Source of the DNA: a virus
Reading direction: 5' to 3' (one strand)
DNA: 58,867 nt
IMG/VR virus record: IMGVR_UViG_3300034062_004791
Location: 1-58,867 of that record
In this document: positions 11,211 to 57,727 of the stretch, piece after piece
How the letters are laid out: every line of letters begins with the position of its first letter
Numbering within the stretch: the first letter of the stretch is position 1
Made by a program: the position numbers and the translations under genes
The notes under the pieces: generated by a model
Seen by the model: only the letters and a program-made list of their open reading frames with translations
Databases searched by the model: none
What the model was told of the DNA's origin: nothing

Positions 11211-11269
11211 ATTATACAACGAAAAGGGCACCCGCGAAGGGGCCCTTATGCCGGTTTAGGAAGTGGTCA
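11211..11269 (-). promoter_or_regulatory. Dyad promoter with nested terminator, for 10867-11184
   Basis: Diverged dyad (GACCACTT / AACCGGCAT, 11248-11269), hairpin GGGCCCC-GCGGGTGCCC with TTTT, TATAAT at 11211-11216 after 31 bp. Confidence 0.72.
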
Positions 11270-11677
11270 CTTATCTACACTGAAGGTAGGAACTGGAGTT
11301 CCATCAAGGCCAATCGGAACCATAATCAACTTATTTCCTTTTTCAGAACCCTGTTCTAGGTTTTGAATATAAAGATATTGAAGATATTCTTTGTTGTCTT
11401 TGAGTGAGCCAGCAATAACCTGATTGGCTTTTGCTACACCCTCTGCACGAATAACTTCTGCATCAGCAAGTGCCCTAGCAGATTCTTTTTTGGCATTTGC
11501 TTCTTGAATTGCAATTTGACGATTATACTCGGCGCGAGCAAGTTCACTTTTTCCGGCAAGTGATTGGTTCTATATATTATATTGAGGAAGGCCAAATGCA
11601 AGACCACCAATAATTACCACTGCTCCGATAGCAAATAGGACCATACCAGAGTCAATAAAATCATTTTGTTGTTTCAT
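11267..11677 (-). pseudogene. SPFH/prohibitin-like membrane protein with in-frame TAG
   Basis: One continuous frame of 137 codons from ATG 11677 to TGA 11267-11269, interrupted only by TAG at codon 36 (11570-11572). Part one is an N-terminal transmembrane helix ending GLPQYNI. After the stop come AGKSELARAEYNRQIAIQEA and a coiled-coil stalk, then KANQVIAGSLKDN and IMVPIGLDGTP, the pattern of short SPFH-like phage proteins. In relatives I recall, a Trp follows PxYNV, so the change is TGG to TAG. TAG ends many genes here, so it is a true stop. Either the gene is dead, it is read through, or this is a sequence variant. Confidence 0.75.
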
Positions 11678-12501: not shown

Positions 12502-12518
12502 GTTGTTGGTTTGTTTAG

Positions 12519-12599
12519 TGTTCATCAAGAGATTTGAACTCTTATGGTTGCCCAGCAACATTTTCGATGTTGTGCGGATACCAATTCCGCTAGATGAAC
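12519..12599 (-). tRNA. Class II tRNA-like gene, anticodon loop reads GAA
   Basis: A cloverleaf folds by eye: acceptor GTTCATC/GATGAAC, D arm GCGG...CCGC with GGTA in the loop, anticodon stem CAACA/TGTTG, a variable arm TGG-GCAA-CCA, and T arm AAGAG/CTCTT with loop TTCAAAT. All stems pair. The long variable arm is a Leu/Ser hallmark, but the seven-base loop TCGAAAA puts GAA (Phe) at 34-36 and C instead of U at 33. Discriminator A; no CCA is encoded (CTA follows). Identity is therefore uncertain: an unusual Leu/Ser-type tRNA or a decaying one. Confidence 0.75.
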
Positions 12600-13045: not shown

Positions 13046-13126
13046 ATGACCCAACAATTACTAACAGGATTTTGCATAATCCTAATAGGCTCTTTAACCG
13101 CATATCTCATTAAAATCAGCCAGTAG
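13046..13126 (+). CDS. Possible tiny membrane protein, 26 aa (plus strand)
   Basis: ATG at 13046, mostly one hydrophobic helix, ends SQ-TAG. It opposes the minus-strand genes and overlaps the end of 13116-13481. Weak ribosome site; kept only because of its membrane-helix composition. Confidence 0.25.
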   Translation: MTQQLLTGFCIILIGSLTAYLIKISQ

Positions 13127-13481
13127 GATAAACAAGAACTTGCTTGACTTCTTCTTGAGTCATATTTAGTCGTTTACCTAGAAGAAATGCCCGCTTCTTC
13201 CAGATCATAATAGCCTTTGTTAGCTGATTGACTTTTGCATGATTCAAAAAATGTGCCCGACGTTTTGCGATAATGAACAGCGTATTATATGCTTTCATGT
13301 CGTTAATTAGGTCTTGATGTTGATCAAGTTCCTTTTTAGAGATTTTGTTGAACATTTTGAAATAGACCTCTTTATAAGAAGTCAATTCGTCCAGGACCTT
13401 ATAAGTATCCTCTAGGGAGAGTTCTTCAAGATCATCGGCGGTAATATCTTGGGCAAAAATTTGGGAGAAATATGAAATCAT
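13116..13481 (-). CDS. Helical hypothetical protein, 121 aa
   Basis: Starts MISYFSQIFAQD at 13481. Predominantly helical with KRRAHFLNHAK and a C-terminal MTQEEVKQVL. It follows a terminator (13494-13517), so it is transcribed separately or by read-through. Confidence 0.6.
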   Translation of the reverse strand: MISYFSQIFAQDITADDLEELSLEDTYKVLDELTSYKEVYFKMFNKISKKELDQHQDLINDMKAYNTLFIIAKRRAHFLNHAKVNQLTKAIMIWKKRAFLLGKRLNMTQEEVKQVLVYPTG

Positions 13482-13493
13482 AATGTGCAAAAT

Positions 13494-13523: not shown

Positions 13524-13643
13524 CTAGCACACAACGGTTTGCTTTTGCTGACGTAAGGTGGCGGTTTGGGCGGTTTTCAGGGCATTAGTTTTCCTGATGG
13601 TGGCCCGGATCAGATTAAGTTTGTTAATTGGGGTTTGAGACAT
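13524..13643 (-). CDS. Small basic protein, 39 aa
   Basis: The start MSQTPINKLNLI at 13643 is preferred because GGAG sits nine bases upstream; an upstream in-frame start lacks this. Lys/Arg/Thr-rich. It has a long 5' leader (13644-13734) with a TAGCTCTTTAGAGC hairpin and a possible promoter CTAAATAATAC at its head. Confidence 0.55.
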   Translation of the reverse strand: MSQTPINKLNLIRATIRKTNALKTAQTATLRQQKQTVVC

Positions 13644-13734
13644 GAGTTTTTCTCCAAAGAAACGGTTGAAAATTGCGTTCCTTCGCTCTAAAGAGCTACT
13701 TCCGGCCAATTTGGCTGAACGAAAGTTGTATTAT

Positions 13735-14978: not shown

Positions 14979-15146
14979 CTAGTAGAAACTAAATTTCCAG
15001 CCTTTTTTAGTGGCCTCTTCGATTACTTGATCATTAGACCAATTGTAATCTTCGGTGCCCACAGTGATGCCGAAATTTTCCCATAAGAATTTTTCGGCAT
15101 CAATAATCATTGCCCTAGAATAATAACTTCTGGTTTCAGTGGTCAT
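14979..15146 (-). CDS. Hypothetical protein, 55 aa
   Basis: Start MTTETRSYYSRAM at 15146, overlapping the end of the upstream gene by 11 bases. Contains WENFGITVGTEDYNW. Unknown. Confidence 0.5.
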   Translation of the reverse strand: MTTETRSYYSRAMIIDAEKFLWENFGITVGTEDYNWSNDQVIEEATKKGWKFSFY

Positions 15147-15354
15147 AATCGGTCTCATAGTAAGAAGAACAAACAATATCATCCCAATGTGATGGAATAG
15201 CCCTCCGAGAAAGAATCCGATTCATTTTAGAAATGGGGAATTCCATTGATTCATCATCGGTAATTAGCGAATCAATTTGACGTTTTTCGTTAAACGTCTT
15301 GGGATTTCGGAGAGCACACTTATTGAAAGAAGTGTTTCGGTGGGTGCGAGACAT
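15136..15354 (-). CDS. MSRTHRNT small protein, 72 aa
   Basis: Basic N-terminus MSRTHRNTSFNK and IPSHWDDIVCSSYYE near the end; this plan recurs in phage proteins of unknown role. Own dyad promoter. Confidence 0.65.
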   Translation of the reverse strand: MSRTHRNTSFNKCALRNPKTFNEKRQIDSLITDDESMEFPISKMNRILSRRAIPSHWDDIVCSSYYETDYDH

Positions 15355-22710: not shown

Positions 22711-23097
22711 ACTGACTTGCTCATAATCCTGAAGAGCCCCATTTACAAAGTGTAGTTTCAGTCTTGGCCAGTCTTCCCATTTCCCTTTCCAATTTGAAGG
22801 ATAAACCACAATGTATTTTGTGATAAGGTAAATTCTATATTTTCCACGTTTTCCGGTTGGTATCCATTCAAAATTCAGAAATAGTCTGTCTTTTTTATAA
22901 CGAGGGTCATCTTCTTTAATTTCTTCAAAGGTTGAAGTGCCAGTATAATCGGGATACCATAATCTACCAGCCGGGTCAATCCAAAAATAGGTCATAGTCC
23001 CACTATAACCCTCTTCAATGTCTTTTGTTTGTAATTCGGTGTCCGTGAAGTGTTCTCCTAAATTATAAGAAGAGCGGACGTAATCAAAAAGTCCGAT
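22693..23097 (-). CDS. FDYV-family phage protein, apparently ATC-initiated
   Basis: From 23097 the frame reads IGLFDYVRSSYNLG, then ELQTKDIE, WIDPAGRLW and a C-terminal LKLHFVNGALQ. This matches a common phage family that starts M-G-x-F-D-Y-V and contains F/L-Q-T-K-D. The first in-frame ATG (22995) would delete the conserved N-terminus. The codon at the expected start is ATC, and a perfect AGGAGG lies eight bases before it. The frame closes upstream at the TGA of the HNH gene. So either ATC initiates, or the start codon was lost by mutation. Confidence 0.6.
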   Translation of the reverse strand: MGLFDYVRSSYNLGEHFTDTELQTKDIEEGYSGTMTYFWIDPAGRLWYPDYTGTSTFEEIKEDDPRYKKDRLFLNFEWIPTGKRGKYRIYLITKYIVVYPSNWKGKWEDWPRLKLHFVNGALQDYEQVSRQSIN

Positions 23098-23100
23098 TGG

Positions 23101-23601
23101 TCATTCCTCCTCAGTCACTATATATTCGCATTTATACCCCTTTGTTTTTTCACCACGATTACAACAAACCCAAATTCTACTTTGATTTAACCCAAGTTGT
23201 CTTGAAAGCGGTCGTTGTCTACCAATAAAAACTTCACCAGTTTCCAAATGAGTTAATTTAACCATAACATCATTAAAGTTATTTGTCCCATGTCGTATTT
23301 TATCAAAAATATTATCTGATTGAGTTCCCTATTGTAAATTAGATAAGTTATCATCTTGAGCATTTCCGTTTAAATGCCTAACAACCATTTTATGTGGTCT
23401 TGGGGATACAAAACTTTCTAAAACGAGTGTAGAGATTGTTTTCTGGACTGCTTTGCCATTTTTATATAATACTACACACCTATAATTCATAGGTGTTTTA
23501 TACCTAATTTTTAAAATGCGATTTTTTTTATTTTTAACTCTTCCCATATTAGAAATTTTATAAAGTCCTTCATAATTTAAAACTGGTTTCCATTTTTCCA
23601 T
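23101..23601 (-). pseudogene. NUMOD4/HNH homing endonuclease with in-frame TAG
   Basis: 167 codons including one TAG at codon 91 (23329-23331). Before it: the NUMOD4 motif WKPVLNYEGLYKISNMGRVK and the HNH part VVRHLNGNAQDDNLSNLQ. After it: GTQSDNIFDKIRHG and a NUMOD1-like tail ending KCEYIVTEEE. Family members read NLxWGT, so the conserved Trp is replaced by TAG. This is the same substitution as in 11267-11677. Without read-through the product lacks the DNA-binding tail. Confidence 0.8.
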
Positions 23602-23604
23602 TTT

Positions 23605-24207
23605 TTATTTTACATATTTCATAAGTTCCTTATAATTCTCAAACATTTTCTGACGTTGAAGGAAATAAAAGAAAAATCTAAGGGTATTTAGAGAATCGTA
23701 TTCAGCATTATGTGATTGACCAATAAAATCTAGACCATAAGAAATCATTGATTTTCTAAGGCCACCGGAAGGAGTTTTGCCACGAACCATTTGATTGAAG
23801 ACGTATAGAGTTTTTACATCTATTACTCTGCGACCAAAATATGGAAAATGAATTCCTCTTTCTCTGAATTCATCCTTGAGTTCGGTTGCATCCGAAAACT
23901 TATTATTACCTCCCCAAACCAAGGGATTTGTAAATACTTGATTTTGTGTAAGAATATCCCCGAGTTCTTGGGCTACTGTTTTGTGGTCTACAGACTTTTC
24001 TTGGATAATTTCGTCAGTAATCCCGGTAAGTTGGGTGATAAATGGTGTAATATTTTCTTCAGGGTCAAGATACCAAGAGTATGTCTCGATTTCCTCGGGT
24101 CTTATTGGGCTCCCCCAGGCAACGCCAACCTGAATAATTCGTGGAGTAGTTCCATCATTTTTATTGTTAAGTTCAAGATCAATTGCTAGGTAGTTTTGGT
24201 CTCTCAT
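23605..24207 (-). CDS. DnaQ-like 3'-5' exonuclease
   Basis: 200 residues, DEDDh superfamily. ExoI AIDLELNN (Asp/Glu pair at about 10 and 12), the ITQLTGIT block typical of DnaQ/ExoX enzymes, and ExoIII HNAEYDSLNTLRFF with catalytic His and Asp. No polymerase domain. Could be a proofreading or RNA-degrading enzyme. Confidence 0.85.
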   Translation of the reverse strand: MRDQNYLAIDLELNNKNDGTTPRIIQVGVAWGSPIRPEEIETYSWYLDPEENITPFITQLTGITDEIIQEKSVDHKTVAQELGDILTQNQVFTNPLVWGGNNKFSDATELKDEFRERGIHFPYFGRRVIDVKTLYVFNQMVRGKTPSGGLRKSMISYGLDFIGQSHNAEYDSLNTLRFFFYFLQRQKMFENYKELMKYVK

Positions 24208-25604: not shown

Positions 25605-26059
25605 CCATAGTTAAAGTGTACTTGTGTCTCCCATATAGTCAGACTTCTATCTTGGAGTTTATGAGCAACAACATTTGGAAGAAATCTAGAATATTTGTCT
25701 AGAAACTCTCTTTCATAAAGTTCTTCGGTTCCGGGTAGATAGAAATCATTTCCTACAAATTGTTGCCATCGTTTTTGATAATATTCGGTTGAATCATTGC
25801 GACTGATTTGTAGAAAAATAGTCCGGCCTTCACCACTCGCCGTATAATCAATTACTCGGTAGTTGTAGTAGTTTTTTTGAAATTCTTCAGGAAAAAATCC
25901 ATCTGAGATATGTCCAAATTGTTCTTTGACATTTATTTTGGATATTTTGATATTCGCTTCTCTGAGACGTTTGTTTTCTTCTCTAAGACGTTCAGTTTCT
26001 TCTCTAATGCGTTCGGTGTCTTTTCGCATTGGTTCTAGCCAGGAATCATCAGTCATCAT
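25601..26059 (-). CDS. Coiled-coil protein, 152 aa
   Basis: Residues 10-42 are a regular coiled coil (RIREETERLREENKRLREAN); the rest is alpha/beta with many aromatics. It overlaps the truncated terminase gene by four bases, in the place where the nuclease half of a terminase would be. No terminase nuclease motifs are visible. Confidence 0.6.
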   Translation of the reverse strand: MMTDDSWLEPMRKDTERIREETERLREENKRLREANIKISKINVKEQFGHISDGFFPEEFQKNYYNYRVIDYTASGEGRTIFLQISRNDSTEYYQKRWQQFVGNDFYLPGTEELYEREFLDKYSRFLPNVVAHKLQDRSLTIWETQVHFNYG

Positions 26060-26802
26060 TCATATTCACGGTTAAATGCGTCTTCTCCAATATTTTTAAT
26101 CGTCATCTCCTTCCAATTATTATCTAGTCTAGGAATATCTCTCCAATCATATTCGGATAATACATATTTGTTTATACCATTCTTCGTATCTTCAACTATC
26201 TCATTAAAATAACTACCTTCTTTTTTGGTACTTGCGATAATTATTTTGGGTGAGCCATTACGATGAAAGAAAGAAGCCAATAAATTCTCAGAAGTATAGT
26301 ACTCCATAAAAGCAAATTCATCTAAGAATGCGTGAGTATATTCCCAATTCTCCCAAGTTTCGGGTGCGGATATATTTGTTACTATTTTTATCCTAGAATT
26401 ATTTTTAAGTATTAACCACATTGAGGTTCTTTTTACTATTTTGGGTTTAATCCAATCAGGCAACTGTTCATAAGCATTATAGAATCGTTCAAGTAAATAT
26501 TTTGAATTTTGATAACTAAAACTACTAATCACAATATTGCAATTAGATTTAAAGATTGCCTGATGTAAAAGGTAGAATAATGGAACAGATGATTTACCAA
26601 ATTGTCTTGGGGCCTTTATAAGATTGTATTTGTTTTTATGAATTTTTTTGACTATTTCTTCTTGGGCCGAATAAAGAAGAAATGGCGCATTGCGTTCTTC
26701 AAGTGAAGAAAATTTTACATAATTGTTGATAAAATAAGCTGGGTCATTAGAACATTTAATTAATTCTGAAAAATTAGAAATTTTGTTTAATAGGTTAATC
26801 AT
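26056..26802 (-). CDS. Terminase large-subunit ATPase fragment
   Basis: 248 residues. Walker A-like KAPRQFGKSS (63-72), Walker B THAFLDEFAF (156-165), and a coupling block ASTKKEGSYFNEIV. The end WRDIPRLDNNWK...IGEDAFNREYE matches the linker that precedes the nuclease domain in T4 gp17-type terminases, then stops (TGA TGA). The nuclease domain is missing. It is therefore an ATPase-only paralogue or a remnant, not the working terminase. Confidence 0.75.
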   Translation of the reverse strand: MINLLNKISNFSELIKCSNDPAYFINNYVKFSSLEERNAPFLLYSAQEEIVKKIHKNKYNLIKAPRQFGKSSVPLFYLLHQAIFKSNCNIVISSFSYQNSKYLLERFYNAYEQLPDWIKPKIVKRTSMWLILKNNSRIKIVTNISAPETWENWEYTHAFLDEFAFMEYYTSENLLASFFHRNGSPKIIIASTKKEGSYFNEIVEDTKNGINKYVLSEYDWRDIPRLDNNWKEMTIKNIGEDAFNREYE

Positions 26803-28360: not shown

Positions 28361-28508
28361 AAACCCCTCTAATTAATTCGGCAGTTTCTTCAATCAGTTC
28401 TTGTGTGATGTGGGAATATTCGCAATCTTTTGGAGTTGCAATATAAGGAAACTTGGCCTTATTTGGCTCAAATTTCCCGGCCAGGAGTGGTTTTTGGATT
28501 TTAGTCAT
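28353..28508 (-). CDS. Possible N-terminal stub of an ATP-dependent DNA ligase, 51 aa
   Basis: Starts MTKIQKPLLAGKFE and continues KFPYIATPK. This matches the segment just before the catalytic lysine of phage ATP-dependent ligases (KPMLA...KFPxLASPKLDG). After ATPK the sequence changes to an unrelated helix and ends. It cannot be active; either a remnant or chance resemblance. Confidence 0.45.
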   Translation of the reverse strand: MTKIQKPLLAGKFEPNKAKFPYIATPKDCEYSHITQELIEETAELIRGVYD

Positions 28509-46370: not shown

Positions 46371-46514
46371 CTAAGACGGAATAATTTTTACATCGAATGC
46401 GTTTAGATTTTGTTTGACATGTTCTTCCCATTGAAAAGAATCCTCGATTTTTAGGAAAGTGGCCTTTTGTTCTTTTTTATGTTTGGGAAGTTTGTAGGTA
46501 ACGGTAAATCTCAT
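46371..46514 (-). CDS. Small phage protein, 47 aa
   Basis: MRFTVTYKLPKHKKEQKATF plus a C-terminal IIPS. The start resembles a small cyanophage family. Overlaps the upstream stop (ATGA). Confidence 0.6.
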   Translation of the reverse strand: MRFTVTYKLPKHKKEQKATFLKIEDSFQWEEHVKQNLNAFDVKIIPS

Positions 46515-51299: not shown

Positions 51300-51356
51300 A
51301 CCATAAAACGTTTTTAGACAGAATAGTATAAAAAGTAGACAGTTTAAAAATTGTCT
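51300..51356 (-). promoter_or_regulatory. Dyad promoter for the RNA ligase operon
   Basis: Dyad AGACAATT-N4-AAACTGTCT (51335-51356), TATGGT at 51300-51305 after 29 bp; a TATACT at 51326-51331 is a closer but unconventionally placed alternative. Confidence 0.65.
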
Positions 51357-52587
51357 ACTTACTAATTTCCTGAGACACTGTTTCTCCCAGGGTAAAACTT
51401 TTGTAAATGACCGTTTCTACTGCTTCCGCAACTTTCTTTGAATAAGAATCAAAAACTGGCAATACAATCAGACCATAAGGCTTTACATAATTCCTATAAT
51501 CACATGCACGCAATTCACCAGATACAATTCGATCTGAATCGTTTTTATGAAGACGAATTACACGACCAACAGTTTGGACCATATCAATAATAGACATATT
51601 CCTTAGGAAGATTACTGAATCAAGACCAACCACATTGATTCCTTCTCCTAGGATACTGTAATTGAGCACCACAAATTTCTTTTCTTCATCATTACCCCAC
51701 TCGTTAAGGGTCTTGAAGAAGTCGGCTCTTTTGACCTCTTTCCCATCAATATAACACCCATGTTGTGAGGTAATATGCATAAGACTATAATCTCTTTCTT
51801 TTAGTTGTTCTGCAAAATCAGTTTCACTGATCAATGAAATAATTGATTTAGTAGACTTTGCGGCAATAAGAACCTTGGATGCATTTTCTTCATCAAGGGT
51901 CTTTAGGATCAGGTTACAATTACGTTCATCAATATTCTCACTATTTTCTACTTCTTTTTTTACAACCAATGGTGGAATAACAAAACCCTGGTCTACCATT
52001 TGGGTCATTGGGACACTACAAAGAATTTCACCATAGACTTCTTTGATATTCATTCCTGGTTTTTTATCAGGAATAAGGGAGTTTTTAGGGGTAGCCGTAA
52101 AGAAGTATTTTTTGTTTGCAGACTTGACTGCGTCTTCAATATGGGGAAAGAAGTTTTTCTTTACCGAGTTGTGACATTCATCAAAATTGTATGTATCAAC
52201 CTTAATTCCAGATTCGATTACTTTCTTTAGGGAATTATAAGAAGTAAAGATTAGTTTATGGTGGTCTTTATGGATATTATGCCATTCTTTAAGATTTTGT
52301 GGATCAGTTGTTCTATAATGTTTGAATTTAGATCCAGAATGAATATGAATAAACTTTGCATTAGTAATAAACTTCTCATATTCTTGAGACAGTTGAGAAA
52401 CAAGAAGAAGTCTTGGTGCAACAACACAAACAGTCTGAGGAATAGATGATTCAAACTGTTTAATTGTATTTTGAATAAAAATAATAGACTTACCAGCACC
52501 TGTTCCTAGGATAATTGAACCATTATCATTATGATGCATCTGATGCAATGCGTCTTGTTGATGTGGTCTGAGAATAATAGGAGTCAT
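51355..52587 (-). CDS. SF2 DNA/RNA helicase, UvsW-like
   Basis: 410 residues. LRPHQQDAL (Q-like), GTGAGKS (28-34), VVAPRLLLVSQ (Ia), DECH (136-139, a DEAH/D-type box), FTATP (III), motif V LGEGINV and motif VI QTVGRVIRL. This is a complete SF2 core like T4 UvsW, which remodels replication and recombination forks. Two dyad promoters lie upstream. Confidence 0.86.
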   Translation of the reverse strand: MTPIILRPHQQDALHQMHHNDNGSIILGTGAGKSIIFIQNTIKQFESSIPQTVCVVAPRLLLVSQLSQEYEKFITNAKFIHIHSGSKFKHYRTTDPQNLKEWHNIHKDHHKLIFTSYNSLKKVIESGIKVDTYNFDECHNSVKKNFFPHIEDAVKSANKKYFFTATPKNSLIPDKKPGMNIKEVYGEILCSVPMTQMVDQGFVIPPLVVKKEVENSENIDERNCNLILKTLDEENASKVLIAAKSTKSIISLISETDFAEQLKERDYSLMHITSQHGCYIDGKEVKRADFFKTLNEWGNDEEKKFVVLNYSILGEGINVVGLDSVIFLRNMSIIDMVQTVGRVIRLHKNDSDRIVSGELRACDYRNYVKPYGLIVLPVFDSYSKKVAEAVETVIYKSFTLGETVSQEISK

Positions 52588-55978: not shown

Positions 55979-57727
55979 TTAACTAATAGTAGATTTTAAA
56001 ACTGCAAAACGAATTACTAAAGCCTGAGAAAGCGCACCAGCAGTAACATTACGAACAGCTATTGATGCTGAGCCAGATGAACATGAGGCATTGAGTGTAT
56101 ATGAGCCTAAAGTTCCAACTGACCCCATATTTAAAATCAATAGGTCTGTTTCCCCAATCTTATTATTAGTTAGTGTAAATGTAACTGTAGTATTTGCGGC
56201 AAGTGATGCACCATTCATTGTAATTGAACCACAAAGAGTATTTAATGTTACTCCAGTACTTTTATTAGTAGTTTGAGTAACTTCACCACCAGCCCCAGTT
56301 CCATATCCAAAAGAACCTCCAATACTCAATTGCCCACCAAAGGGTAAAATTGAAACAGTACCATCAGCATCAACATCAATACTAGGAATACCAGAAACAT
56401 CATTCACAGAAAAAATAGAACCACTGGTAAGATTATTCGTAATTCTAAATAATTGACCAGAAGATGCTTCCCAAGACAGAGTTCCACTGTCTAAATTGTC
56501 ATAATGCATATTTTTAATAATAGTTCCAATTCCAACCGTCCCAATTCCAGAAACATTTCCAGTATATGTAAGAGAGCTAGAACCAGTAGCTACATTGGAT
56601 GAGTTTTTATAGATAATTTGATTTGCACTACCTTCCACTGGTCCAGTAATACCTTGAATACCTTGAGTTCCGGTAGTACCTTGAGTACCTGTGGTTCCTT
56701 GAGTACCTGTAGTACCTTGAGTTCCTGTAGTTCCCTGGCTTCCTTGAGTACCTGTAGTACCTTGAGTACCTGTAGTACCTTGAGTTCCTGTAGTTCCCTG
56801 AGTTCCTGTGGTTCCTTGAGTACCTGTAGTACCTTGAGTTCCTGTAGTTCCCTGAGTTCCTGTGGTTCCTTGAGTACCTGTAGTGCCTTGAGTACCAGTT
56901 AATCCTTGTCTACCTTGGATTCCTTGAATACCTTGAGTTCCGGTAGTACCTTGAGTTCCGGTAGTACCTTGAGTTCCTGTGGTTCCTTGAGTACCTTGAG
57001 TTCCTGTGGTTCCTTGAGTACCTGTAGTACCTTGAGTTCCTGTGGTTCCTTGAGTACCTGTAGTACCCTGAGTTCCGATAGTACCCTGAGTACCAGTTAA
57101 TCCTTGTCTACCTTGGATTCCTTGAATACCTTGAGTTCCTGTAGTACCCTGAGTTCCGGTAGTACCTTGAGTTCCTTGAGTTCCTGTGGTTCCTTGAGTA
57201 CCTGTAGTACCCTGAGTTCCGATAGTACCCTGAGTACCAGTTAATCCTTGTCTACCTTGGATTCCTTGAATACCTTGAGTTCCTGTAGTACCCTGAGTTC
57301 CGGTAGTACCTTGAGTTCCTTGAATTCCCTGAACTCCTTGGATACCTTGAAGTGCTGCTGTTGCAATTGCTTCCCACTTGATGCCAGAACCAGTAGATAG
57401 TAATACTGATGTTGCAGTTCCTACATTATTACTACTATCTTTTAAAGCACCAACAACTTTAATATAACTATCTGTTTGTCCTAAACTTACTGTCTTATTT
57501 GTAAGACCTCTTATTTCACCATCCTGCTCAAAAATAATATCTACATTATTAACACCATCACCAATAAAAATATCTCTACTTGTATCACCTAAAGTTAAAT
57601 CGCCACCAGGATTTGCGATATTAAGATTACCATTATCATCTAATTGAATAGTAGCACTTGATATACCAATGTTACCTTGAAAATCCACTAGGCCCGAGGC
57701 AGGCGTTATGATTACATCTTTGGGCAT
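55979..57727 (-). CDS. Collagen-like tail-fibre-type protein, 582 aa
   Basis: Residues 1-125 are beta-rich (IQLDDNGNLNIANPGGDLTLG). Residues about 125-365 are 80 or so Gly-x-y triplets, mainly GTQGTT and GIQGIQGRQGLTGTQG. Residues 365-582 form a beta-rich head ending LVIRFAVLKS. Such proteins form trimeric fibres. The repeat is almost free of Pro, Thr-rich, and uses T-Q rather than P-P. Likely virion surface; host interaction is inferred. Confidence 0.85.
   Translation of the reverse strand: MPKDVIITPASGLVDFQGNIGISSATIQLDDNGNLNIANPGGDLTLGDTSRDIFIGDGVNNVDIIFEQDGEIRGLTNKTVSLGQTDSYIKVVGALKDSSNNVGTATSVLLSTGSGIKWEAIATAALQGIQGVQGIQGTQGTTGTQGTTGTQGIQGIQGRQGLTGTQGTIGTQGTTGTQGTTGTQGTQGTTGTQGTTGTQGIQGIQGRQGLTGTQGTIGTQGTTGTQGTTGTQGTTGTQGTTGTQGTQGTTGTQGTTGTQGTTGTQGIQGIQGRQGLTGTQGTTGTQGTTGTQGTTGTQGTTGTQGTTGTQGTTGTQGTTGTQGTTGTQGSQGTTGTQGTTGTQGTTGTQGTTGTQGIQGITGPVEGSANQIIYKNSSNVATGSSSLTYTGNVSGIGTVGIGTIIKNMHYDNLDSGTLSWEASSGQLFRITNNLTSGSIFSVNDVSGIPSIDVDADGTVSILPFGGQLSIGGSFGYGTGAGGEVTQTTNKSTGVTLNTLCGSITMNGASLAANTTVTFTLTNNKIGETDLLILNMGSVGTLGSYTLNASCSSGSASIAVRNVTAGALSQALVIRFAVLKSTIS
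56640..57350 (-). repeat. Tandem 9- and 18-base repeats in the collagen-like region
   Basis: Units of Gly-Thr-Gln-Gly-Thr-Thr (18 bases) alternate with a longer block (GIQGIQGRQGLTGTQGTIG) that recurs several times at about 110-150 base intervals. Unequal recombination or slippage could change copy number. Confidence 0.85.

Follow-up and report, generated by a model that had tools for sequence, protein, structure and literature searches.

Background

Phage homing endonucleases of the I-HmuI-like NUMOD4/HNH type (PHROG families 1492, 59 and 959) combine a NUMOD4 with an HNH_3 domain and are patchily present at single sites, features which are shared by the gene described here, whereas the latter carries a TAG codon inside its HNH motif. 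The homing cycle includes the degeneration of homing endonuclease genes (summarised in PMC3403396), and here likewise intact, damaged, remnant and absent states occur at one site in related genomes; the present lesion differs in being a single, apparently young nonsense codon, and homing itself is putative in this case. In-frame TAG codons followed by conserved coding sequence are also typical of the stop-codon-recoded phages, crAss-like and others, which use translation table 15 with TAG read as glutamine (PMC11210395). In contrast to these, the window (the whole of the 58.9-kb IMG/VR virus record) has just two such codons, both at tryptophan positions, retains TAG as a terminator and shows no Sup-CTA tRNA in the available fragment. 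The locus seems to present a homing endonuclease gene at the onset of decay, with related cyanophages providing intact, remnant and empty versions of this site.

Relatives of the window

Shared genes place the window among the T4-like cyanophages. Its nearest named relative is Synechococcus phage B23 of the Kyanoviridae (MN695335), which comes from a subarctic lake (PMC7171214). Phage and window have many small genes in common, and their UvsW proteins are 68% identical. The UvsW proteins of two IMG/VR contigs, G002 and G003, are closer (86% identity), and the left half of the window is matched by a further contig, G001. The 140 kb examined of the about 244 kb of B23 contain no match to either of the two TAG-bearing genes of the window, namely the HNH gene and a stomatin-like gene.

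A NUMOD4/HNH gene with an in-frame TAG

The features of the HNH gene are as follows:

23101..23601, minus strand: disrupted, free-standing NUMOD4/HNH (I-HmuI-like) homing endonuclease gene, with 166 sense codons and a TGA upon readthrough of the TAG
23329..23331, minus strand: in-frame TAG, codon 91 of this gene, TGG in L131, L136 and L056
23329..23601, minus strand: predicted truncated product of 90 aa, in which NUMOD4 is complete, HNH_3 breaks off at about 36 of its 46 positions and the C-terminal part is lost

Read from 23601 to 23101 on the minus strand, the frame runs M...VVRHLNGNAQDDNLSNLQ, then TAG, then GTQSDN...CEYIVTEEE and a terminal TGA at 23103-23101. The preliminary description had reported a TAG in a NUMOD4/HNH gene at the motif NLQ-stop-GT and a frame continuing for 76 codons to a proper stop; the TAG and the proper stop are both borne out, while the count of sense codons between them is 75. 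The frame downstream of the TAG is a real gene rather than a chance opening, as it aligns to its end with the orthologs in three IMG/VR stretches (L131, L136 and L056). Enterococcus and Staphylococcus phages also encode full-length relatives, which share 37-41% identity with it from end to end, and the PHROG matches of the gene (1492, 59 and 959) are all HNH endonucleases. The NUMOD4 domain is recovered above the Pfam cut-off with or without readthrough (50-52 bits; 52.2 bits, E 5e-15), whereas HNH_3 scores 31.7 bits when the TAG is read through and 24.0 bits in the 90-residue product, against a cut-off of 24.8. The gene therefore descends from the NUMOD4/HNH family, and the translated product lacks a complete HNH domain. 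The position of the TAG had been described as an invariant tryptophan, and TGG is indeed present in all three of the above stretches; however, across 86 relatives in a motif scan the residue is W in 55, Y in 13 and I, F, L or T in 8 (10 could not be scored), such that tryptophan is usual but invariance is too strong a term for the family as a whole.

The insertion site and its states among relatives

The gene lies between two neighbors and has a 3' end shared with other contigs:

23605..24207, minus strand: RNase_T/DnaQ-type exonuclease gene, the upstream neighbor, present in G001, G003 and phage B23
22693..23097, minus strand: PHROG 1615 gene of unknown function, the downstream neighbor, homologous to its relatives from the codon ATC at 23097
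23101..23118, minus strand: GTGACTGAGGAGGAATGA, the shared 3' end (VTEEE stop), which contains a Shine-Dalgarno-like site of the downstream gene

This 3' element together with the next C is present in 13 IMG/VR stretches. The HNH gene is intact and terminates in the element in L131 and L136; in L124, the noisy copy, it is frameshifted but ends in the same way; L128 retains merely a C-terminal remnant with this ending; and L126 is a contig that starts within the HNH tail at the site. A few HNH-like residues at most lie upstream of the element in L133, there is no HNH gene at the site in L127, L129, L130, L132, L134 and L135, where other ORFs end, and the matching stretch in L125 looks unrelated. 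Hence, a single insertion site is polymorphic for presence, remnant and absence of the gene, a pattern which would be predicted by the turnover of a (putative) homing gene. Since the gene comes and goes at this site among the relatives, its loss would probably cost the phage little, and it may be viewed as a selfish insert ahead of the PHROG 1615 gene.

More generally, upstream ORFs of several unrelated kinds share the element as their 3' end in different phages (L126-L136), as at a swap point in front of a conserved gene. The homologous start of the PHROG 1615 gene (23095-23097, minus strand) has no ATG, GTG or TTG and reads ATC GGA CTT, while the relatives have ATC GGA ATG in most cases and ATG GGA CTT in G003. 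The gene may start at the ATC beside the strong Shine-Dalgarno-like site. Loss of its ATG was considered as a third lesion and dropped, as most relatives share the ATC, which is thus not unique to this contig, and have an ATG two codons later.

A second gene with the same change

The claim that an unrelated gene has undergone the same change also holds, with both genes being otherwise intact. The companion, which is the first case that the preliminary description implies, lies at about 11.6 kb of the window:

11267..11677, minus strand: gene for a stomatin-like "protease" (PHROG 11227) with 136 codons upon readthrough
11570..11572, minus strand: in-frame TAG, codon 36 of this gene, Trp in 13 of 13 IMG/VR homologs and TGG in G001

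Further mid-gene stops were sought by tblastn with the ORFs of G001, G002, G003 and B23 as queries against the window, retaining the best frame at each place. This covered about 35 kb, the remainder having no such relatives and hence not being judgeable by the method; stops located in a shadow frame or an upstream extension were not counted. The companion TAG, which has homology on both sides, was the sole mid-gene stop found in these 35 kb. The scan is blind to the TAG of the HNH gene, as that gene has no match in any of the four query genomes. In the comparable part of the window, no other Trp codon was seen to have changed to TAG or TGA, and the list of read-through ORFs of the window revealed no further gene-like halves split by a single TAG. 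The relatives themselves showed practically no comparable stops in the same scan, the nearest being found in G003, where a short ORF has a TAG in place of Gln close to its end. The preliminary description had held that an absence of further cases, together with clean fixed pseudogenes in relatives, would refute its reading: the former is observed over the 35 kb, while the relatives have intact genes with TGG rather than fixed pseudogenes.

Age of the two stops

The presence of TGG in the intact same-site orthologs of L131 and L136 indicates that the TAG of the HNH gene arose on the lineage of the window. Between the window and L131 dN/dS is about 0.21 before the TAG and 0.15 after it, as compared to 0.20 and 0.36 on the two sides of the same position between L131 and L136, both of which are intact. 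The part after the TAG has a dN of 0.156 and a dS of 1.06, and against L056 its substitutions fall mostly at third codon positions (9, 8 and 29 at positions 1, 2 and 3). By our arithmetic, a neutral period could take up only some 5% of the path with a ratio of 0.10 in the intact state, and none of it with a ratio of at least 0.15. The HNH gene has no lesion besides the TAG. In the companion gene, dN/dS downstream of the TAG is 0.27 against G001, at the high end of the 0.06-0.32 of other measured genes, which suggests that this stop is also young or that the gene is made in full, its age being less tightly bounded than that of the HNH stop. Signatures of purifying selection 3' of both TAGs thus imply a recent origin of the stops or, with lower probability, their readthrough; as neither gene has decayed further, the sequence alone does not separate a very young stop from a protein still made by readthrough.

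The TGG and the third-position bias of L056 are used above as supporting evidence only, given that this copy is error-ridden. The L056/L118 record (IMGVR_UViG_3300049043_000188) shows many insertions of 1-2 bases near its start, in the HNH gene, and apparent frameshifts in the stomatin-like gene; these are probably sequencing errors, and its apparent pseudogenes are not trustworthy. The frameshift-riddled HNH gene of G004/L056 was accordingly set aside as a doubtful candidate for an independent pseudogene, as its 18 short insertions, all in one direction and near the contig end, look like sequencing error.

TAG as a terminator

The most direct evidence on the reading of TAG comes from genes which end in this codon, with the UvsW-type helicase serving as a control:

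51355..52587, minus strand: UvsW-type helicase, TAG stop, ending at residue 410 as in G002 (TAG), G003 (TAA) and B23 (TGA)

Similarly, the genes at 315-536, 14979-15182 and 46371-46514 have TAG stops at the same residue as the stops of their relatives (TAG, TAA or TGA). Altogether 6 of the 93 homology-supported genes of the window end in TAG (6.5%; 6-17% in the relatives), and UvsW and RNA ligase would merge into one frame of 885 codons if TAG were a sense codon. Judged by these shared stop positions, TAG is a genuine terminator in this virus. Unlike in TAG-recoded phages, the in-frame TAGs are only two rather than many, about 260 Trp codons of the window remain TGG, and two Trp-to-TAG cases in one contig are insufficient to claim recoding. 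Nor is either stop conserved, as would be expected of programmed readthrough, the relatives of both genes having TGG or Trp at the position. The 81 bases from each TAG fold no better than shuffled sequences (z = 0.31 and -0.47), giving no sign of a stimulatory structure.

ARAGORN found no suppressor tRNA (CUA) in the 58.9-kb fragment; the record does not extend to that part of the genome in which the tRNA genes of the phage would be located. The program did report a doubtful tRNA-Phe at 12518-12599 (minus strand), which is probably spurious, as Rfam recovered no tRNA in the window even at E values up to 2. A tRNA of B23 (L022, 46064-46136) is annotated as a pseudo-tRNA with anticodon CCA and called tRNA-Trp by ARAGORN. 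Its possible role as the chassis of a suppressor was considered and dropped, since in our reading its loop, CTTCCAA, fits a tRNA-Gly (UCC) better.

Origin of the two stops

The above observations are best accounted for by the standard code and two recent TGG-to-TAG mutations that arose independently in dispensable genes and are now either fixed or segregating, an account to which we assign a probability of about 0.8. Under this scenario, the free-standing NUMOD4/HNH homing gene of a B23-like freshwater cyanophage would just have been hit by a nonsense mutation. With TAG read as an ordinary stop, only the 90-residue fragment would be made, comprising NUMOD4 and most, though not all, of the HNH motif, and its nuclease activity would probably be lost. 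The companion TAG would be a second such mutation in another accessory gene. We infer both the dispensability of the two genes and the independence of the mutations. Against this stands the coincidence of the change. Given the codon usage of the window, the share of Trp-to-TAG among random single-base nonsense mutations ranges from 3.7% without transition bias to 13.5% with a transition weight of 8, such that both members of a pair would be of this kind in only 0.1-1.8%, although any shared residue and stop would be expected in 7-11%. The coincidence is hence mildly improbable, notable yet far from decisive, and has to be set against the direct evidence that TAG terminates.

It could also be that most of the sampled phages carry TGG and the contig merely recorded a TAG in one or both genes, through consensus error or through polymorphism, the latter being an option raised in the preliminary description. 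The otherwise intact and constrained state of both genes and the origin of the record as a metagenome contig are consistent with this, and exact DNA patterns around the two TAGs matched no contig of the same population. However, it would be unusual for two conserved codons to be hit by the same type of error in a contig with no sign of indel errors elsewhere (a frameshift site was seen with one of 96 queries, and B23 suggests that it is located in G001), and we regard this explanation as unlikely. The same signatures of selection would result if a host or phage activity partially suppressed the stops, inserting Trp or another residue, and thereby kept both proteins functional. Many in-frame stops in bacteria are reported to lie in genes whose dN/dS is below 1, and readthrough has been proposed for them (Belinky et al. 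2021, PMC7918605), and this proposal keeps a small probability for partial suppression. Given that TAG ends UvsW and other genes at conserved positions, that its reading as sense would fuse UvsW with RNA ligase, that the window offers neither a supporting tRNA nor a stimulatory structure and that no relative conserves either TAG, suppression or readthrough appears quite improbable. The version listed as an option in the preliminary description, amber suppression inserting tryptophan, is likewise not supported, with no other Trp-to-stop case in the comparable part and TGG retained elsewhere. A related variant, in which a Trp-charged amber-suppressor tRNA encoded outside the fragment, by the phage or its cyanobacterial host, supports an early and partial reassignment of TAG to Trp with most TAGs still terminating, is more improbable still. 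If true, suppression would amount to a TAG-to-Trp reading in a phage, of which we know no description.

G-to-A hypermutation, or a mutator strongly biased to G-to-A on the coding strand, would produce such stops from Trp codons only and had likewise been suggested earlier. Window-specific changes lean this way in both genes, G->A exceeding C->T by 14 to 3 in the HNH gene and by 8 to 4 in the companion; as G->A is the commonest change in the former (14 of 63), Trp-to-stop mutations are favored there. Over the 15.5 kb aligned with G001, however, the counts of G->A (383), A->G (331) and C->T (365) are similar. No Trp codon was seen to have become TGA, and about 260 Trp codons persist in the window. 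Hypermutation thus seems largely refuted already and has the smallest probability of all.

Other features of the window

A glutamine riboswitch aptamer (RF01739; 52.2 bits, E 1.2e-8) at 13672-13723 on the minus strand precedes the small genes at 13524-13709 and 13116-13490. At 28428-28508 (minus strand) 27 codons correspond to the N-terminal end of the DNA ligase (290-293 aa) that G001, G003 and B23 encode, with 85-89% identity; as the remaining ligase has no match here, this gene looks like a deletion remnant. The protein encoded at 26056-26802 (minus strand; about 249 aa) has a terminase-like ATPase domain without the nuclease half; this short version is shared with G001 and hence does not represent a truncation peculiar to the present contig. 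Finally, a long protein with collagen-like GTQGTTGTQ repeats, perhaps a tail-fibre protein, is encoded at 55979-57727 on the minus strand.
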